NCBI GenBank assembly: GCA_035530615.1 | Contig: DATKUL010000002.1 | Coordinates: 682,001-746,000 of the forward strand | DNA from: Candidatus Paceibacterota bacterium | GTDB lineage: Bacteria > Actinomycetota > Actinomycetes > Nanopelagicales > Nanopelagicaceae | Direction: 5' to 3' | DNA: 64,000 bases | Shown here: piece by piece, positions 4,395-62,501 of the stretch | Layout of the letters: each line of letters starts with the position of its first letter | Numbering within the stretch: position 1 is the first letter of the stretch | Notes under the pieces: model-generated | Database searches by the model: none | What the model was told of the DNA's origin: nothing | The model's input: only the letters and a program-made list of their open reading frames with translations | Translations under genes and position numbers: made by a program

Positions 4395-5198
4395 ATGTCA
4401 TTGCGCCACTACACACCTCACAGAAATAGGCGAAGGGGAATCTCATCACGGGCCCAGAAATTCCTCTACTCGATCTTGTCACTTGCCATTCTGCTTCAAG
4501 TCTTCTACCCCCTGGTGCATGGTGAGATCCTGCGCTACTTAACTTTTGCGGTTATTTATGTGGCGTCACTAGCCATGCTCCTGCACGCGTTCTACTCATT
4601 TGGTTGGCGATATGCATTCAGATATTTCGCCATCACTTTCATTTTCGGTTTTCTCGTCGAAGAAATCAGCTTGCGTACCGGATGGCCATTTGGAACTTAC
4701 GCATACGATCCAAGTTTGGGTCCTCAACTCCTCGGAGTCCCCATAATTGTTCCCTTTGCGTGGCTGATGATGGTGCACCCCATCCTTGTGATCTCACGAC
4801 GTGTGACGCAACATTGGGTTTTTATATACGGCGGCGCTGCCTTGATGGCTTGGGACCTATTTCTCGACCCGATGATGGTGGCGGCGCACAGATGGTCCTG
4901 GACCTTCACCGGCTCGCATGTTCCCTTCGAGCCAGAGATTCCACTTTCGAACACAGCTGGATGGCTCTTAGCGGGGATGGGACTAATCGCGTTACTGCAC
5001 ATATCCCTTCCGCGCGAGAGAAGGAAACAGGGGGCCGAGTTCACCGCGGTGGATATTTTCCTCAGCTGGACACTTTTCTCTGGCGTGGTTGGAAATCTCT
5101 TCTTTTTTGACCGACCAGGAGTTGCGCTCTTTGCCGGCGCGATCTTCGCTCTTGTGCTTGCTCCGTATGCCTTCGCCCGCTGGCTCGGACAACCGTAA
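4395..5198 (+). CDS. cruF: Carotenoid 1',2'-hydratase, CruF family
   Basis: A 267-residue membrane protein of the DUF422 / carotenoid biosynthesis protein family. Diagnostic stretches are 'EEISLRTGWPFGTYAYDP' at about residues 93-110 and 'LMAWDLFLDPMMVAAHRW' at about 150-170, whose acidic residues are the conserved features of CruF-type hydratases. It would add water across the C1'-C2' double bond of an acyclic carotenoid end, giving the 1'-hydroxyl that CruG-like enzymes glycosylate. First gene of a cruF-GT2-crtD run; the glycosyltransferase start overlaps its 3' end. Confidence 0.85.
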   Translation: MSLRHYTPHRNRRRGISSRAQKFLYSILSLAILLQVFYPLVHGEILRYLTFAVIYVASLAMLLHAFYSFGWRYAFRYFAITFIFGFLVEEISLRTGWPFGTYAYDPSLGPQLLGVPIIVPFAWLMMVHPILVISRRVTQHWVFIYGGAALMAWDLFLDPMMVAAHRWSWTFTGSHVPFEPEIPLSNTAGWLLAGMGLIALLHISLPRERRKQGAEFTAVDIFLSWTLFSGVVGNLFFFDRPGVALFAGAIFALVLAPYAFARWLGQP

Positions 5199-6288
5199 AC
5201 TTTTTGTTTCAATGATTTTTGTGCTCTTACTTCTTCCCTCGATAATCATCCTCATCTCTTTTACAAATAAATTCTCTTTGATTCGCCTCAAGAATGCTGA
5301 GAAGATTTCTCCGTTCGCGATTACTGTTTTAGTCCCTTTGCGCAATGAAGAGAAAAATGTTGAAGCGGTGGTTGCCTCGCTCAAGAAACAAAGAGGTCTT
5401 CCCCATTTCAATATTGTTCTCATCGATGACAATTCAACCGACCAAACACGTCGCCTCTGCTCCGAGGCAATATCCAACGATTCACGTTTTTCTCTCTTGG
5501 TCGGAAGTAAGTTGCCCAAGGAGTGGCTGGGAAAGCCGTTTGCACTAAAACAAGGATTAGAGCTCTGCGATTCAGAGTTGATAATTCTCATCGATGCCGA
5601 CGTTCGTTTGAAGGAAAACGCCATCGCGGAAGCGGCTACGCTCTTTGCGGCGAAAGGCCTGGACTTCATCTCTGTTTATCCGAAGGAGATTGCTCTCACA
5701 TGGAGCGAGCGTCTCATTCAACCCCTCCTTCAATGGTCATGGTTAGCGAGTGTTCCCTTGAAAGTTGCCGAACACTCCTCCCGACAATCCCTTGCTATCG
5801 CTAACGGTCAGTTCTTTCTTCTTCGCAAGTCCTCATTGCTGGCCGTAGGCGGGTTTGATTCGATATGTGATGCTGTCATTGACGATATTGCACTGGCCCG
5901 CGTGTTTCTCAGAAACGGATTTCATGGCACCGTAGTTGATGGCTCACGGGTTGCCGAATGTCGTATGTACCAATCGTGGGAAGAATTGCGAAATGGCTAC
6001 AGTAAATCCCTCCCGGTCGCCTTTGGAGGGTGGTTCGGCTCATCCCTAGTGGTCATACTCCTATTCCTCACTGGGGTACTACCACTTGCATTTGCGCTCA
6101 CTGGCTCAACCGTCGGAATCGCATCCCTCAGCCTCATCTACTTATCGCGACTATTGAGCGCGCGAATCACAGGTGGACGGTGGATTGATGCAATCGCGCA
6201 TCCCCTCTCGTCACTCTTGCTCATTTACATGATTGTGCGCTCGTGGCGAACTCGCGGGAAAATTTTATGGAAGGGCAGAGCGATATGA
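5167..6288 (+). CDS. Family 2 glycosyltransferase, CruG-like
   Basis: A 373-residue membrane-anchored GT2. An N-terminal hydrophobic segment is followed by a GT-A domain: 'VLVPLRNEEKNVEAVV', 'LIDDNSTDQT' (nucleotide binding), 'LIDADVR' (DxD-like metal motif) and 'DDIALARVF'. Two to three hydrophobic segments close the protein. Position directly between cruF and a crtD-like gene makes transfer of a sugar to the carotenoid 1'- or 2'-hydroxyl the likely role (inference). Start is ambiguous: ATG 5167 overlaps cruF; ATG 5212 lies just after it. Neither has a good SD. Confidence 0.8.
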   Translation: MPSPAGSDNRKLFVSMIFVLLLLPSIIILISFTNKFSLIRLKNAEKISPFAITVLVPLRNEEKNVEAVVASLKKQRGLPHFNIVLIDDNSTDQTRRLCSEAISNDSRFSLLVGSKLPKEWLGKPFALKQGLELCDSELIILIDADVRLKENAIAEAATLFAAKGLDFISVYPKEIALTWSERLIQPLLQWSWLASVPLKVAEHSSRQSLAIANGQFFLLRKSSLLAVGGFDSICDAVIDDIALARVFLRNGFHGTVVDGSRVAECRMYQSWEELRNGYSKSLPVAFGGWFGSSLVVILLFLTGVLPLAFALTGSTVGIASLSLIYLSRLLSARITGGRWIDAIAHPLSSLLLIYMIVRSWRTRGKILWKGRAI

Positions 6289-7784
6289 GTCGCATCGTTG
6301 TCATCGGCGCAGGTATCGGTGGCATGTCAACTGCAGCACGACTTGCAACACTAGGACACAGCGTTGCAGTCTTTGAGGGCTCAGCACACGTTGGTGGCAA
6401 GTGCCGAACTGAGTGGATCGACGGATATGCATTCGATACCGGTCCCACTCTCTTGACACTGCCTGCCGTTTATCGTGATTTCTTTCTCAAGACTGGAGAT
6501 GCTCTCGAAACAGTTCTTGAAATCCAAGAAGTAAACCCCTCGTTTGACTATCGATTCATAGATGGATCTCACGTTCAATTTGCCAATCTCTCCCGCTTCC
6601 AAACGCTCAAGGCGATCGAAGAGAGTTTTGGAAATCAATCGAGTTATCAGTGGAATCATTTGATGCTCCGGGCAGAGAAAATGTGGGATGCATCCCGCGA
6701 GAAGTTCATTGAAGCGGAATTGCGCTCTTGGCCATCCCTCTTGAAGAATCCTCAATTCTTTCGCGATCTCCAAACAATCGCACCCTGGAAATCTCTACGT
6801 TCGCTCACGCATCAAATCACTCATGACTCCCGACTTCAGTACATCGCTGAGCGTTACGCAACATATAGTGGATCGGATCCGCGAAAGGCACCTGCGGTAC
6901 TTCTTTCAATTGCCTTCGTCGAAGAGGCTTTTGGTGCATGGCACATCAAAGGTGGAATCGGCCAACTTGCGTATGCGATCCACGACCGCGCCGTTGAACG
7001 CGGCGTCACTTTTCATTGTGGGCAAAAAGTGGTTGAAATTCTCCACGATGGAACTCGAACCATCGGAATCCGCTTAGCGGACGGCGCTTCGGTTAAGGCT
7101 GACTTGGTTGTCGCCAATGCAGATGCATCGCAGGTCTACTCATCCCTTCTCAAATCCGACCTAAGAGTCTTAAAGAGACCGCGAAGATCCATTGCGCGAT
7201 CCACTCCGTCATCTGGAGGATTCTCATTGTTTTTAGGATTGAAGAAGGACCCAATGGCTCAACAACTTTCCCACCACACAATTCTTTTCCCAGCCGATTA
7301 TGAGACCGAGTTCGAATCAATCTTTACCCATATGAAGCCAGCCAAAAAGCCAGCGATCTACATATGCTCCCCGAACGATCCATTGATGGTGCGAAGGGAT
7401 GACACCGAGGCTTGGTCAGTTCTCGTAAACACTCCTCCTCACTCCACAACTGGTCAAGGCTGGGATTGGAATGATCGCGAATTTTCGCAGTCCTATGCAA
7501 ATACCATCATCGATCAGATTGAATCACGTGGCATCGCAATTCGAAATCGTCTCGAACTCATGGAAATTCGTACTCCCGCCGACTTGGAGCGAGAGACATT
7601 TTCACCAGGTGGTTCAATTTATGGAACGTCAAGCAATGGCGCTCCGGCGGCGTTTTGGCGCGCGAAGAACCGCTCTCCACTTCATGGGTTGTTCTGCGTC
7701 GGAGGATCAGCACACCCGGGAGGCGGTTTGCCACTGGTCGGAATCAGCGCAGAAATCGTCGCAAACACGATTGACCACGCTTAG
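6285..7784 (+). CDS. CrtI/CrtD-family carotenoid desaturase
   Basis: A 499-residue FAD-dependent desaturase of the CrtI superfamily. The N-terminal dinucleotide fold is 'VVIGAGIGGMSTAARL', followed by the family block 'GGKCRTEWIDGYAFDTGP'. The C-terminal FAD motif is 'VGGSAHPGGGLPLVGISAE'. Start ATG 6285 overlaps the GT2 stop as ATGA. Because a canonical crtI lies at 10399 and this copy sits beside cruF, a CrtD-like role (3',4'-desaturation or hydroxycarotenoid dehydrogenation) is more likely than phytoene desaturation. That assignment is inference from context. Confidence 0.8.
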   Translation: MSRIVVIGAGIGGMSTAARLATLGHSVAVFEGSAHVGGKCRTEWIDGYAFDTGPTLLTLPAVYRDFFLKTGDALETVLEIQEVNPSFDYRFIDGSHVQFANLSRFQTLKAIEESFGNQSSYQWNHLMLRAEKMWDASREKFIEAELRSWPSLLKNPQFFRDLQTIAPWKSLRSLTHQITHDSRLQYIAERYATYSGSDPRKAPAVLLSIAFVEEAFGAWHIKGGIGQLAYAIHDRAVERGVTFHCGQKVVEILHDGTRTIGIRLADGASVKADLVVANADASQVYSSLLKSDLRVLKRPRRSIARSTPSSGGFSLFLGLKKDPMAQQLSHHTILFPADYETEFESIFTHMKPAKKPAIYICSPNDPLMVRRDDTEAWSVLVNTPPHSTTGQGWDWNDREFSQSYANTIIDQIESRGIAIRNRLELMEIRTPADLERETFSPGGSIYGTSSNGAPAAFWRAKNRSPLHGLFCVGGSAHPGGGLPLVGISAEIVANTIDHA

Positions 7785-7789
7785 TGTGC

Positions 7790-8419
7790 TTAGCTCAGAC
7801 TCTTCCGAGCGAACCTAATAACCAGTCCGAAACTAAATGCTTGTAACAATGTCATTGCAATCGCGATCTCATTGAGCCAATTCGCCGTGGAATCAAACTG
7901 CGCAGCCACTATCGCAACGAACATGATGATTGCGCGGATTGGACGCTCCGCGGGAGTCACAACTCCGATCTGGCGAATTCGCTCCGATCCAAGGCGAGCG
8001 CGCGCATATTCTTGCAAGGCAGCGATGAGCCAAAATGCCACAACCCATGTCAACGGTGCTCCAAGTCGATAGAACGCAACCGCCCATAATGCCTCGGAGA
8101 TGCGGTCTGCGACAGAATCAAGGGTTGCACCTAATTTGGTGACTTTGTTCTGGACAATTGCGATGCTTCCATCGACTCCATCACATAGGAGAGAGAATAG
8201 AAGCAGAATGGCTATCCACCAGCGCGGGGAATAAAGGGCAGTTCCTGCTGCTAAGGCGACTCCAAAATAGGTAACCGAGTTGGGACTAAGCCGTGCAGAA
8301 CTGAGTACTCGTGCAATTCGATAAGAGATTCTTAGCCAGCCACCAACCATCCCGGCGGTCGATGCGCCACCATGTTCGAGACTCCACTTCGAGGTGAAAT
8401 CACCGAAGTTCATGGTCAC
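7790..8419 (-). CDS. CDP-alcohol phosphatidyltransferase-family membrane protein
   Basis: A 209-residue protein with several membrane segments and the CDP-alcohol phosphotransferase signature at about residues 84-109: DGVDGSIAI, then GATLDSVAD. All four Asp and both Gly of the D-xx-DG-xx-AR-...-G-xxx-D-xxx-D motif are present, but the Arg of 'AR' is Ile. The family makes phospholipid headgroups from CDP-activated donors. The GTG start (8419) overlaps the metF stop as GTGA, so it is coupled to metF. The substrate cannot be predicted. Confidence 0.75.
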   Translation of the reverse strand: MTMNFGDFTSKWSLEHGGASTAGMVGGWLRISYRIARVLSSARLSPNSVTYFGVALAAGTALYSPRWWIAILLLFSLLCDGVDGSIAIVQNKVTKLGATLDSVADRISEALWAVAFYRLGAPLTWVVAFWLIAALQEYARARLGSERIRQIGVVTPAERPIRAIIMFVAIVAAQFDSTANWLNEIAIAMTLLQAFSFGLVIRFARKSLS

Positions 8420-9267
8420 AGAGAAATACCTAAATTCGTGTATATCTCTCTTGTGGCAGTGGAAGTGTTCATAGTATAGAAATGTAAACCAGGCGCGCCT
8501 GCGTCGAGAAGTTCATGACACAATTTTGTCGCAATCTTGATACCAAGTGCCTTGACTGCACCTGAATCTCCATCGATTTTGGCAAAATCCTCTCGAACTT
8601 TTTGGGGAATCGGCGTGCCACCCAACTCTGCCATCCGCTCCAACTGCTTAACATTTGTAATTGGCAAAATGCCAGGGATCACGGGAATGCTCGACCCGCG
8701 AGCACTGAGTCTCTCGACAAGGGCACTCCACTTGGAAACGTCAAAAAAGAACTGCGTTGTGGCAAAACTCGCTCCAAGGGATTCTTTGCGAAGAAGGACA
8801 TCGATATCCTGTTCCATATTTCCGCCAGATGCCGGGTGACCATCAGGAAAAGCGGCAACTCCAATGGTGAAATCGCCGCTTTCGGCAGCTAACGCCACGA
8901 GTTGGTCAGCATGGTCAAAACCACCAGGTGTAGAAGCCCACGGGACGCTAGGTCCTCCGGTGGGATCGCCTCTCAAAGCCATAATGCTCTTGATTCCCGC
9001 CGCGCGGTAATTTTCCAGGACTTCTCTCAATTCGGCTTGCGTCGAACCGACACACGTGAGGTGGGCAACAGTGGGAATATGAGTCCGTTCTGTTATCTCC
9101 GACGTAATTCGGATAGTGCGTTCGCGCGTAGAACCACCCGCTCCGTAGGTCACCGAGATGAAAGTTGGCGATAAGGACTCCAGTGACTCCATTGCCGACC
9201 ACAGGCGCTCTTCACCCAGGGAATCCTTCGGCGGAAAAAACTCAAAGGAAAACGATCTCTTGGCCAT
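8416..9267 (-). CDS. metF: 5,10-methylenetetrahydrofolate reductase
   Basis: A 283-residue TIM-barrel flavoprotein of normal MetF length. It opens with the family signature 'SFEFFPPKDSLGEERLW', then 'FISVTYGAGGSTRERT' and 'LTCVGSTQAELREVL'. The Glu of EFFPP is the conserved catalytic acid. It reduces 5,10-methylene-THF to 5-methyl-THF for methionine synthesis. Divergent from crtE across only 45 bp, with the CDP-alcohol transferase gene downstream. Confidence 0.95.
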   Translation of the reverse strand: MAKRSFSFEFFPPKDSLGEERLWSAMESLESLSPTFISVTYGAGGSTRERTIRITSEITERTHIPTVAHLTCVGSTQAELREVLENYRAAGIKSIMALRGDPTGGPSVPWASTPGGFDHADQLVALAAESGDFTIGVAAFPDGHPASGGNMEQDIDVLLRKESLGASFATTQFFFDVSKWSALVERLSARGSSIPVIPGILPITNVKQLERMAELGGTPIPQKVREDFAKIDGDSGAVKALGIKIATKLCHELLDAGAPGLHFYTMNTSTATREIYTNLGISL

Positions 9268-9312
9268 AACCTACCTTTCGCGCAACGTGATAAGTGAGGG
9301 TACCGTTGCCAC

Positions 9313-10398
9313 GTGACCCTAGAACCTCAGTTCGCTCTTGCGGATATACGAATGCGCGTTCAACGCAATCTCACAAATTTTCTCGCAGAACAAATCCAGT
9401 ATCTAGGCGAGATCGGCACTGAACTCATACCCGTGGCCGAGGCGATGAACGCCTTTCTCCTTGACGGTGGAAAGCGCTTACGCCCTCTCTTTGCCTACTG
9501 CGGATATCTGGCTGCAGGGGGCGAAGACGACGATGCAATTATAGGTGCCGTTTCAAGTCTCGAACTCTTGCAAGCGTGCGCCCTCATCCATGACGACCTC
9601 ATGGACGGATCAGATACTCGTCGCGGAAAACCTTCGATCCATCGCTGGTTTGAGGCAATTCACGAAAACGAAGAACTCTCCGGATCCGCCACGAGTTACG
9701 GAGCATCTGCGGCAGTGCTCCTCGGAGATCTGGCACTTGTCTGGTCAGATCAGATGCTTCACCAAAGCGGAATTGCGAGTGATGCGCTCATCCGCTCCCT
9801 CTCGATTTATGATGAGATGAGAGTCGAACTCATGGCAGGGCAATTCCTGGATGTACATGAACAAGCCCTTGCTTCTCAGAGTGTGGCACGCTCGCTTAAG
9901 ATCGCCCGGTTCAAGTCGGGCAAATACACAGTTGAGCGCCCGCTGCATTTTGGAGTTTTTCTCGCGCAACCAAATCAGCAGAAGAGATCGACATACACAA
10001 CCATCTTCTCTGAATTTGGCCTCCCACTCGGAGAAGCTTTTCAATTGCGCGATGACCTACTCGGAGTCTTCGGAGATCCATCTGTCACAGGTAAACCCGC
10101 CGGGGATGATCTGCGTGAAGGCAAGCGAACCGTCCTCATGGCAATGACCCACGATCGGGCCACGGAGCAGCAAGAGCGCATCATCTCCAAACTCTTTGGC
10201 GATCCCAACCTCACGGCCGCCGACATTGAAGAAATGCAAATGGTCATTACCAATACAGGTGCCCGCGAACACGTTGAAGAGCTCATCGAAAGACTCACCC
10301 TCACGGCCCTGGATGCCCTCAATCGAGATGAAATCGACTCGACCGCCCACGCCATTCTGAATGAATTGGCATCCAACGCGGTTCGGCGGAGCGTGTAA
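9313..10398 (+). CDS. crtE: Geranylgeranyl diphosphate synthase (polyprenyl synthetase)
   Basis: A 361-residue trans-prenyltransferase. The first Asp-rich motif is 'HDDLMDGSDTRRG' at about residues 93-105; the second is 'FQLRDDLLGVFGD'. The substrate-binding 'DGGKRLRP' is at about 51-58. It condenses IPP with allylic diphosphates to GGPP, the precursor of phytoene. GTG start at 9313. The stop abuts the crtI GTG start, forming a tight crtE-crtI-crtB operon. Confidence 0.9.
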   Translation: MTLEPQFALADIRMRVQRNLTNFLAEQIQYLGEIGTELIPVAEAMNAFLLDGGKRLRPLFAYCGYLAAGGEDDDAIIGAVSSLELLQACALIHDDLMDGSDTRRGKPSIHRWFEAIHENEELSGSATSYGASAAVLLGDLALVWSDQMLHQSGIASDALIRSLSIYDEMRVELMAGQFLDVHEQALASQSVARSLKIARFKSGKYTVERPLHFGVFLAQPNQQKRSTYTTIFSEFGLPLGEAFQLRDDLLGVFGDPSVTGKPAGDDLREGKRTVLMAMTHDRATEQQERIISKLFGDPNLTAADIEEMQMVITNTGAREHVEELIERLTLTALDALNRDEIDSTAHAILNELASNAVRRSV

Positions 10399-11883
10399 GT
10401 GTCGGCACGGGTTAAAGGACCCACCAACAATATTGTCGTAGTCGGCGCGGGTTTGGCTGGATTGAGCGCAGCCCTTCGCTTGGCGGGCGCCGGACGGAAC
10501 GTCACGGTTATCGAGCGTGAATCGGTTCCTGGTGGACGAAATGGTCTGCTCAAAATCGGTGGCTACTCATTTGATACCGGTCCGACGGTGCTCACGATGC
10601 CCAACCTTATTGAAGATGCCTTCAATTGTGTTGGAGAAGAAACAAAGGACTGGCTCGAACTTAAACCACTCTCCCCTCTTTACCGTGCCTTCTATCACGA
10701 CGGTTCGACCATTGATGTTCATGCTGATACCAAAAAAATGGAAAATGAAATTGAAAGAACGATTGGCGCTTCAGAGGCTCAGGCTTATAAGAAGTACGTT
10801 CAATTCGTAACCAAGCTCTACAAATATGAAATGAATGATTTCATAAATCGAAATATTGATTCTCCGCTCAATCTGATTACACCTAACCTGGCAAAACTTG
10901 TTGCAATCGGCGCATTCCGAAAATTAGCGCCGAAGGCTAATCAGTACTTCAAAGATCCTCGTCTCCAAAAGATCTACTCTTTCCAGGCAATGTATGCCGG
11001 GGTGAGCCCTCGACAGGCACTCGCGATCTATGCCGTCATTGCCTACATGGACTCAGTAAATGGGGTCTTCTTTCCCAAGGGTGGAATGCACGCTCTTCCA
11101 GCTGCCTTGGCTAGCGTCGCCGAGAAGCACGGCGTCAATTTCATGTACAACACCACGGTCACTTCAATTGACTATTCAAATGGGCGCGCACGAGCGGTTA
11201 TTACTGATACCGGAAAGAGTATTCCTTGCGACGTCGTGGTTCTCAATCCCGACCTTCCGGTTGCGTGGAGAGACCTGCTCAACCGGACTCCACGCTCTGT
11301 TGCTCGGCTAAAATATTCGCCTTCGTGTGTCACCTTATTGATTGGTTCGAGCAAAGAGTACTCACACCTCGCTCACCACAATATTCACTTCGGTCAAGCC
11401 TGGGATGGGATCTTTGACGAACTCATCGAGAAGAAGACCCTCATGTCAGACCCAAGTTTTCTAGTGACGGTTCCGACCATGGACGATGCCTCACTTGCAC
11501 CACAAGGAAAACAGTCTTACTACGTGCTCTTCCCTGTCCCTAACTTGGATTCTTCAATCGACTGGAATCACATGGCAGAGCCATACCGAGATCAGATGAT
11601 TGAGACTCTTGAAAAACGCGGTTACCCCGATTTCGCCGACTCGATAGAAATCGAAACAGTTACGACGCCGTTGGATTGGCAGAGGCGAGGCATGGAACGA
11701 GGGGCACCATTCGCGAGTGCGCACACCTTCTTCCAAACTGGCCCCTTTCGACCAAGTAATCTTGCCCGCGGTTTCGAAAACGTTGTCTTTGCGGGATCAG
11801 GAACCCAACCCGGAGTTGGCGTGCCGATGGTTCTTATTTCAGGTCGCCTGGCGGCCGAGCGCATAGTTGGTCGGGTGAAATAA
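10399..11883 (+). CDS. crtI: Phytoene desaturase
   Basis: A 494-residue CrtI. FAD fold 'IVVVGAGLAGLSAALRLAG' at the N-terminus, then 'PGGRNGLLKIGGYSFDTGP'. The C-terminal motif is 'FAGSGTQPGVGVPMVLISG'. It introduces the double bonds turning phytoene into lycopene. GTG start immediately after the crtE stop; crtB follows without a gap. Standard family length and intact motifs. Confidence 0.92.
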   Translation: MSARVKGPTNNIVVVGAGLAGLSAALRLAGAGRNVTVIERESVPGGRNGLLKIGGYSFDTGPTVLTMPNLIEDAFNCVGEETKDWLELKPLSPLYRAFYHDGSTIDVHADTKKMENEIERTIGASEAQAYKKYVQFVTKLYKYEMNDFINRNIDSPLNLITPNLAKLVAIGAFRKLAPKANQYFKDPRLQKIYSFQAMYAGVSPRQALAIYAVIAYMDSVNGVFFPKGGMHALPAALASVAEKHGVNFMYNTTVTSIDYSNGRARAVITDTGKSIPCDVVVLNPDLPVAWRDLLNRTPRSVARLKYSPSCVTLLIGSSKEYSHLAHHNIHFGQAWDGIFDELIEKKTLMSDPSFLVTVPTMDDASLAPQGKQSYYVLFPVPNLDSSIDWNHMAEPYRDQMIETLEKRGYPDFADSIEIETVTTPLDWQRRGMERGAPFASAHTFFQTGPFRPSNLARGFENVVFAGSGTQPGVGVPMVLISGRLAAERIVGRVK

Positions 11884-49595: not shown

Positions 49596-49629
49596 GAAAA
49601 CCTCCGCGCTTGCCGGTAGCGAAACCACC

Positions 49630-49718
49630 AACCCGGTCTTCACCCGGAGCACCCCGCCGCGATGGAGGGTTGCCGTCCAGTTAGCCGGGGCTCGTACCTG
49701 GAACTCGTGACCTTGGCA
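49630..49718 (-). promoter_or_regulatory. SAM-IV riboswitch upstream of metX
   Basis: Read on the minus strand, the leader contains GGTCACGAG (49712-49704), GAGCCCCGGCTA, GGCAACCCTCC, GCGGCGGGGTGCTCCGGGTG and GAAGACC, the conserved order of the actinobacterial SAM-IV aptamer. GGTC (49709-49712) pairs with GACC (49635-49638) to close P1. S-adenosylmethionine binding would reduce metX expression, plausibly through the SD at 49601-49605. Confidence 0.85.
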
Positions 49719-61986: not shown

Positions 61987-62229
61987 CGTCTCGAAATATA
62001 GAAAACTATTTCACGGACACATTCTAGGAATTTTATTGTGGCTGTTTAATTTTTCACAGGCAGTAGATCTGCACATTTAGAGTTCGCCTCAGATCCTCAC
62101 ACATTGAACACTTCTACATTCACTCCGTCCCAAAGCCTGCTCCCTCGAGAGTTCAACCGATCCGTCATCGGACCAATTGAACTCCTGATTTCCTAACCTC
62201 CGTTAGGAAATTCGAGGAAGGAGGCCGTT
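61987..62229. other. Structured 5' leader of the small membrane peptide gene
   Basis: This gap holds two hairpins before the peptide start. First: GAGTTCAA (62149-62156) with TTGAACTC (62177-62184), enclosing CCGAT (62157-62161) paired with ATCGG (62167-62171). Second: ATTTCCTAAC (62188-62197) with GTTAGGAAAT (62202-62211), loop CTCC. That loop can pair with the AAGGAGG ribosome site at 62218-62224. No promoter was securely recognised. Confidence 0.6.
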
Positions 62230-62343
62230 ATGGATATTCACAGTTGGCTAGCCCTCATCGTAAGCGTGATTCGAATTGCCTTTCTAGTGATAGAAAAACA
62301 TCGATCTCGCCACGATGGTGGTAAAACCAACAACGAGTCCTAA
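62230..62343 (+). CDS. 37-aa membrane peptide, type I toxin-like or regulatory
   Basis: ATG 62230 follows AAGGAGG (62218-62224, five-base spacer). The 37 residues begin MDIHSWLALIVSVIRIAFLV, a single hydrophobic helix (about residues 5-20), then a basic tail with E, K, R and H and a soluble end (GGKTNNES). One-helix-plus-basic-tail peptides are typical of type I toxins such as Fst/TxpA-like and of small regulators. No family is recognised. It has its own terminator and no downstream gene on this strand. Confidence 0.6.
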   Translation: MDIHSWLALIVSVIRIAFLVIEKHRSRHDGGKTNNES

Positions 62344-62353
62344 CGTGGGACGG

Positions 62354-62390
62354 CCGCCTCGGGGTTTTGCCTCGAGGCGGTTCTATTTTT
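62354..62390 (+). terminator. Strong intrinsic terminator of the small peptide gene
   Basis: CCGCCTCG (62354-62361) and CGAGGCGG (62373-62380) form an 8-bp GC-rich stem that extends inward with GGG/CCT; TTCTATTTTT follows. A textbook Rho-independent terminator. Confidence 0.85.
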
Positions 62391-62501
62391 ACACCCACTT
62401 TTTCGTTACTGCAATGACAAATGACCCGAAAAAATCATTTATATAAAAGAAAACTCTCCGTTGTAATCAGAAGAGTCCTTTCTGTAACTCTGCGTGAGGA
62501 T

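Follow-up and report, generated by a model that had tools for sequence, protein, structure and literature searches.

A family of small-peptide genes within one actinobacterial family whose mRNAs are predicted to hide the Shine-Dalgarno sequence and may work like type I toxin mRNAs

The DNA analysed here (the window, 64,000 nucleotides) carries near its right end an ORF of 37 amino acids at positions 62230-62343 of the plus strand, with its ATG at 62230. A VKOR-family gene lies to the left of it, and the genes for HipA and its helix-turn-helix (HTH) partner lie to the right on the other strand. An earlier sequence-only reading had described the ORF as part of a transcript-like unit, and this description was borne out: both leader stems, the Shine-Dalgarno (SD) sequence, the ORF and the terminator were read at these coordinates, and the unit recurs across a taxonomic family. 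On the plus strand, the unit begins with a DnaA-box-like element, ATCTGCACA (62067-62075), a weak match in the window copy, which is located 45 bp before the −10 hexamer TACATT (62115-62120); a TANNNT occupies the same place across the family. Transcription would start at about 62127, 7 nt past TACATT. The leader contains hairpin 1, which bears GATCCGTCA (62149-62184), and hairpin 2 (62188-62211), a perfect stem with one compensatory A-U/C-G change between copies and a variable loop, and is followed by the SD AAGGAGG (62218-62224), the ORF and an intrinsic terminator (62352-62391) that consists of a stem-loop (62352-62382) and then CTATTTTTAC. The region contains three terminator-like sites, compared with 0.5 ± 0.7 in shuffled sequences, and the terminator shows one compensatory change in L002 and one broken pair in L003. 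A conserved 3′ module without assigned strand (62393-62495) ends in TAACTCTGCGT, approximately at the limit of similarity between copies, and could be the mRNA 3′ end, a promoter or a recombination site. The repeated unit extends over about 440 bp (~62053-62495) and is longer than first described. A palindrome-like TACTCNGAGTA, or a variant of it, closes many units (L176 and L158; ~62485-62496 in the window), and a similar stretch, TTACTCCGAGT, is found in an ABC-transporter intergenic region of the window's own genome (G000) and of G005 and G017; the frequency of TACTCNGAGTA-type motifs in the window was not above chance. A SAM-IV riboswitch was also found in the window (49601-49712, minus strand, 96.1 bits).

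The unit is present at four loci in two species, and divergent forms occur elsewhere in the family. The genome of the window (G000; 2.16 Mb, three contigs) carries a second full copy with 84% amino-acid identity, and the congener G005 carries two copies with 86% and 78% identity. In the other 19 genomes of this genus, the close profile detected no copy. The ~440 bp are common to three copies. The fourth, G005b, consists of the SD and the ORF only, without leader or terminator, which counts against reading the transcript as a toxin mRNA; it lies antisense between the genes for class II ribonucleotide reductase and a DEAD-box helicase, the latter being dinG by our reading, in a lexA-nrdR cluster. 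A 47-bp direct repeat (79% identity) was noticed downstream of the second copy, at ~6337-6383 and 6874-6920 of L043.

Searches with successively wider profiles found about 40 divergent relatives in the taxonomic family, one of actinobacteria with small genomes. With the close profile, 296 family genomes yielded 20 matching places at E ≤ 0.05. These include the four known copies; of the others, ten were read, and five proved homologous by peptide, SD and leader. A widened profile matched 78 of the 296 genomes at E ≤ 0.1, chance matches included, and a 37-peptide profile matched 56 of the 296 at E ≤ 0.001, with a weak tail that may hold chance matches; part of each of these two lists was read base by base. 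Among good-quality genomes the 37-peptide profile matched 28 of 108, and it reached five of 17 genera. In a class sample of 394 genomes, some of which belong to this family, only four matches fell outside the family; these were marginal (E 0.003-0.007) and sit in frames of 73-343 amino acids. No viral carriage was found with the close profile. Most relatives come from fragmented genomes, and some remnants may be assembly artefacts. A start is present in 46 of the 47 places read closely (all except L178), and comparison of these places establishes a gene family. The leaders, sorted by eye into types A, B and C plus an unassigned group, differ in sequence and mostly form the same three-way junction. 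For the promoter and leader counts, the leaderless or doubtful L150, L153, L160 and L171 and the near-duplicates L147 and L177 were left out, L169 was dropped as too short upstream, and inclusion of the three full window-type copies brought the total to 42 units; two of these have no recognizable SD, leaving 40 leaders for the SD and z counts. L192 (G173:C1, ~414900) is a probable further divergent unit, in which TCTATCCACAGC, 45 bp and TACCTTTC are followed by a leader and by an ORF whose product begins MVPEFDW. G000 also contains a type B relative with an internal deletion (L194, G000:C2:534500-539500, match at 536989-537051), with the 5′ part of a leader joined to the C-terminal half of an ORF.

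The earlier description of a short hydrophobic product with a basic tail also holds beyond the window. The 41 peptides collected across the family are 33-39 amino acids long, and the best 15-residue hydropathy has a median of 2.19 (lowest 1.05; window 2.87). The shared pattern is a hydrophobic stretch followed mostly by E and then by a basic tail, commonly ARR, and the helix and tail are still recognizable at 11-30% identity to the window peptide. The peptide is probably inserted in the membrane. The dN/dS ratio was 0.20-0.29 for the window type (six pairs) and had a median of 0.51 for type B (66 pairs), establishing by comparison that the peptide is under selection, which is, if anything, underestimated, because RNA constraint may lower dS. 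No Pfam family matched the window protein. When 37 members (alignment A8, a selection without repeats from the places read) were compared with Pfam, NCBIfam and PHROGs, the results showed only strays: a KdpF model with one member (E 2.3e-5), phrog_9177 with seven members (best E 0.002) and DUF7313 with five (best E 0.1). No curated family fits the peptide family, which is absent from the libraries searched.

The predicted mRNA of the window copy (62127-62392) folds with −119.6 kcal/mol (z −10.4), and those of the other two full copies have z values of −10.0 and −8.6. In the minimum-free-energy fold of all three, the 5′-terminal GUCCC (62127-62131 in the window) pairs with a GGGAC that follows the stop codon (62347-62351). 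The leader is predicted to form a three-way junction in which the 5′ strand GCCTGCTCCCTCGA (62135-62148) pairs with 62212-62225 and so covers the SD. The SD had previously been proposed to pair with the CTCC loop of hairpin 2; this pairing was rejected, since the other two full copies have GACC and CGCC as loop sequences and the predicted partner is the 5′ strand. The more general proposal that the leader hides the SD was upheld, as the predicted fold recurs in the family and is backed by covariation. The coding RNA is a single long hairpin, from GUUAUGG to CCUAAC, which is deeper than most synonymous-codon resamplings in four copies (z −1.8 to −3.4); 45, 5, 2 and 2 per 1000 resamplings were as low as the native hairpin, the window copy being the least extreme. 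None of the 45 pairs of this hairpin had changed on both sides among the four close copies.

Distant relatives showed the same leader architecture with a different sequence. Modelled pairing of the SD was 1.00 in the three full window-type copies; in silico, the SD was paired at >0.7 in 27 of 40 leaders, and the remaining 13 had values of 0.41-0.65. Type C accounts for four of these 13, type A for three and type B for one, and five have no assigned type. The z value of the leader had a median of −2.71 and lay below −2 in 27 of the 40 and above it in 13. The 13 leaders with less-paired SDs and the 13 with weak z values count against the reading as a toxin mRNA. Covariation in relatives, which the sequence-only reading had put forward as a check on the leader, was examined in 12 aligned type B units, and the result was in favour of the fold: over 98 pairs, 94.8% of cells were paired, compared with 34-43% when partners were slid, and 20 pairs had changed on both sides, compared with 9.2 ± 2.0 in shuffled alignments (0/500). 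The number of further pair types, one of five measures, was less extreme (53 versus 47.9 ± 2.1, 7/500), and the structure had been predicted by RNAalifold on the same 12 sequences, which biases the comparison in its favour. The 12 sequences are those of the 16 in alignment A9 that remained after three misaligned rows, which distort the fold of the full alignment, and L172, at a contig end, had been left out. No consensus fold (0 pairs) was obtained for alignment A10 (types A and C), in which the sequences are too divergent. With regard to sequence, 13 of 18 type A/C leaders, a group that includes the window type, contain GATCCGTCA, and all 18 contain CGYCA. In type B leaders such as those of L156 and L158, an ATG lies 4 nt before the ORF ATG (12 of 12 aligned units) and opens a five-codon out-of-frame reading frame that overlaps the peptide start, an arrangement that may resemble mok. 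Given the paralogues, the z values of the mRNA fold, the synonymous-codon resampling and the covariation, an origin by chance or artefact was rejected.

The structure of the whole transcript is very strong, and in type B the covariation runs through the ORF too. Both points would fit a dual-function regulatory RNA, with the peptide secondary to the structured transcript. The dN/dS values of 0.20-0.51, and a helix and basic tail that persist where identity has fallen so low, argue against such an RNA, which we regard as quite improbable.

Most units have the same promoter geometry. Of 42 units, 36 have a TNCACA followed, 44-46 bp downstream, by a TANNNT −10; the distance is exactly 45 bp in 32 units, and no pair was found at any of ten shifted control positions. 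The six units without the pair as tested count against the reading as a toxin mRNA; L146 and L157 are among these misses, and a looser rule finds a pair at 44-46 bp there. The family consensus of the element, TTATCCACA(G), is like the DnaA box of these genomes: the dnaA loci of ten genomes (G000 included) contain TTATCCACA 35 times, compared with a single occurrence in seven other loci totalling 61 kb. The exact TTWTNCACA was found at −200 to −130 in 17 of 42 units and in none of seven control windows on the same strand, and the window-type copies have the weaker forms ATCTGCACA and ATTTGCACA. Seven of 14 tRNA genes (among loci L183, L187, L195, L196 and L151) also have a TCCACA 44-46 bp before a TANNNT −10, all seven in loci that contain the unit or its remnant, and none of the 15 tRNA genes in 864 kb of G000 carries the element; these counts weaken a simple DnaA story. 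Taken as a general promoter feature, the element did not stand out in the same 864 kb, where 45 bp was not enriched as TYCACA-TANNNT spacing. It is therefore a promoter element that some tRNA genes also have, and DnaA is a candidate for acting on it. No LexA box was found at the units scanned (window, L012, L043, L011 and L044), while a GAAC-N4-GTTC box lies beside the lexA gene in L012, and control by LexA/SOS was rejected for want of a box at the five.

The genomic setting was then compared between loci. Next to the window copy, the neighbour identified earlier as HipA was confirmed (PF07804, E 1e-47), as was its HTH partner (HTH_3, E 5.5e-10, for the full gene, which runs past the window edge). 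A defence setting did not prove general: 17 of 20 neighbour proteins of relatives have a Pfam family, nearly all of them metabolic or repair families, and one protein has a GmrSD-type nuclease domain. At 12 of 46 places, spread over three genera and including a pair from near-duplicate strains, the unit faces the 3′ end of a convergent class II ribonucleotide reductase gene (L142, L143, L145, L149, L155, L164, L166, L168, L170, L175, L177 and L104). Other neighbours are a RibD gene with an FMN riboswitch, a purine/cytosine permease, glutamine synthetase, a DinG-kind helicase, PEP mutase and a photolyase-related gene. Two side observations concern individual loci: L044 has a variable island between its VKOR and ribonucleotide reductase genes (6503-11270; HipA, HTH partner, AAA/DUF234 ATPase and a further HTH gene), and L012, in the congener, has near lexA a gene for a PIN-domain protein together with a MazE-like antitoxin gene, and also an HTH_3 gene (4686-5476 and 6735-7106). 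Two copies lie near each other in G190, G250, G290 and G272, and remnants without leader or N-terminus were found in several genomes. Such truncated or leaderless remnants are expected of a gene that is often better broken, and they count for the reading as a toxin mRNA.

Small regulated membrane peptides that are not toxic, such as the checkpoint peptides SidA and YneA, offer another explanation, in which the unit would encode a replication or division checkpoint induced by DnaA or replication stress and the leader would be a riboregulator. The DnaA-box-like element at a fixed 45 bp, the convergence with ribonucleotide reductase genes at 12 of 46 places and the position of G005b in the lexA-nrdR cluster are in line with this, and a CCGYCA in hairpin 1 (16 of 16 type B and 17 of 18 type A/C leaders) would suit a riboregulator. 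Excerpts of the literature add that nrdAB is regulated by DnaA in Escherichia coli (PMC8203912) and that many bacteria are known to have small division inhibitors bound to the membrane (PMC6051672). However, the patchy distribution (56 of 296 genomes), the neighbouring copies and the frequent decay better suit an expendable toxin, no LexA box lies at the five units examined, and Rfam gave no match at the leaders of the window and 11 further loci. A checkpoint peptide is therefore possible, but we consider it rather unlikely.

The same survey bears on a selfish mobile cassette, of which the conserved ends would be recombination signals and the peptide would serve only to stabilize the cassette. 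Similar copies do sit in different contexts; the congener G017 lacks the unit both at its ABC-transporter locus and at a place where VKOR and a HipA-like gene are adjacent; and similarity between type B units is at background from ~90 bp past the stop and upstream of about −165. Against a cassette, no transposase, integrase or phage family was found among the 20 neighbour proteins scanned, and the nrdJ position is common to three genera, which suggests descent in place. We hold this explanation to be very improbable.

An antisense promoter was searched for in the window-type copies and the type B units and was not found. No consensus minus-strand promoter lies downstream of the ORF in the three full copies, and the weak one guessed at around 62395-62430 in the window is not supported; the two minus-strand promoter-like sites of the window region lie at 62021-62057 and point away. 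Within 170 nt past the stop, a minus-strand TANNNT is absent from the window copy and L002 and occurs once in L003, and within 60 nt none is conserved in at least nine of 12 type B units. By eye, the 3′ modules of the window type and type B have a similar AT-rich stretch on the minus strand.

Taken together, the unit is probably a stand-alone gene for a small membrane peptide, the mRNA of which would be made in a silent fold and work like a type I toxin mRNA. The likeness to type I toxins that had been noted in the window recurs across a family and now has covariation and dN/dS behind it; the hidden SD, the structured ORF, the pairing of the mRNA ends, the one-helix peptide with its basic tail, the neighbouring copies and the decay point to the pattern of type I toxin mRNAs, in particular that of AapA. 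We favour "works like" and would not file the gene as a type I toxin-antitoxin system, because the antitoxin RNA that defines such systems and the toxicity of the peptide are both putative. In the mechanism proposed, transcription would start ~7 bp past the TANNNT −10, with the DnaA-box-like site fixed 45 bp upstream of that hexamer, and the nascent 5′ end would fold into the three-way junction that pairs the SD. The ORF would then close into its hairpin and, in the window type, the two ends of the mRNA would pair, leaving the full mRNA silent. The SD would have to be released, by 5′ or 3′ processing, by loss of a repressor RNA, or by a ligand or protein at hairpin 1, and the peptide might enter the membrane as one helix and need only a low dose to act, probably as a toxin or a brake on growth. 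A wider version, in which this is a type I-like toxin family of Actinomycetia tied to replication, with DnaA driving a stock of silent mRNA that is unlocked when replication or dNTP supply fails so that the peptide halts the cell, is, in our estimate, unlikely.

If true, the wider version would amount to a brake, locked by RNA and sensing replication, in bacteria whose genomes are very small. The family would allow a link from DnaA to an RNA-locked peptide to be tested in small-genome bacteria. It would also contribute an RNA motif and a small-protein family without a match in Rfam, Pfam or NCBIfam, encoded by a small, easily overlooked gene that would look like one for self-poisoning held under an RNA lock. 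An excerpt of PMC12390103, the 2025 report of a cyanobacterial case, limits the range known before it for type I systems to Proteobacteria, Firmicutes and Tenericutes, and no actinobacterial, Nanopelagicales or Planktophila case was among the literature matches listed. A covarying, SD-hiding mRNA family in Actinomycetia would widen that range if an antitoxin were found.

Among known systems, MsoT1/MsoA1 of Microcystis is likewise a type I system reported outside the classical phyla (PMC12390103, in excerpt), but it is cyanobacterial, and the likeness is one of description. TisB/IstR-1, presented in excerpts of PMC2826370 and PMC8145889 as a type I pair tied to host DNA damage, resembles the unit in its small membrane peptide; TisB/IstR-1 is under SOS/LexA, whereas the units examined here have no LexA box and a DnaA-box-like element instead. 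For hok/Sok, no family model shared with the unit was found; as excerpted from PMC6733600, its full-length mRNA is likewise very stable and has to be processed at the 3′ end before it can be translated. For AapA/IsoA of Helicobacter, no shared family model and no IsoA-like antisense promoter were found here, yet the excerpts describe a short single-helix peptide with a positive C-terminus (PMC8309996) and an mRNA whose fold masks the SD and pairs the 5′ end with the 3′ end (PMC6733600), as in the window type. The mask itself differs: in AapA, as far as the excerpts go, the 3′ end covers the SD and 3′ trimming activates the mRNA, whereas here the SD is predicted to be covered by the 5′ strand of a three-way junction.
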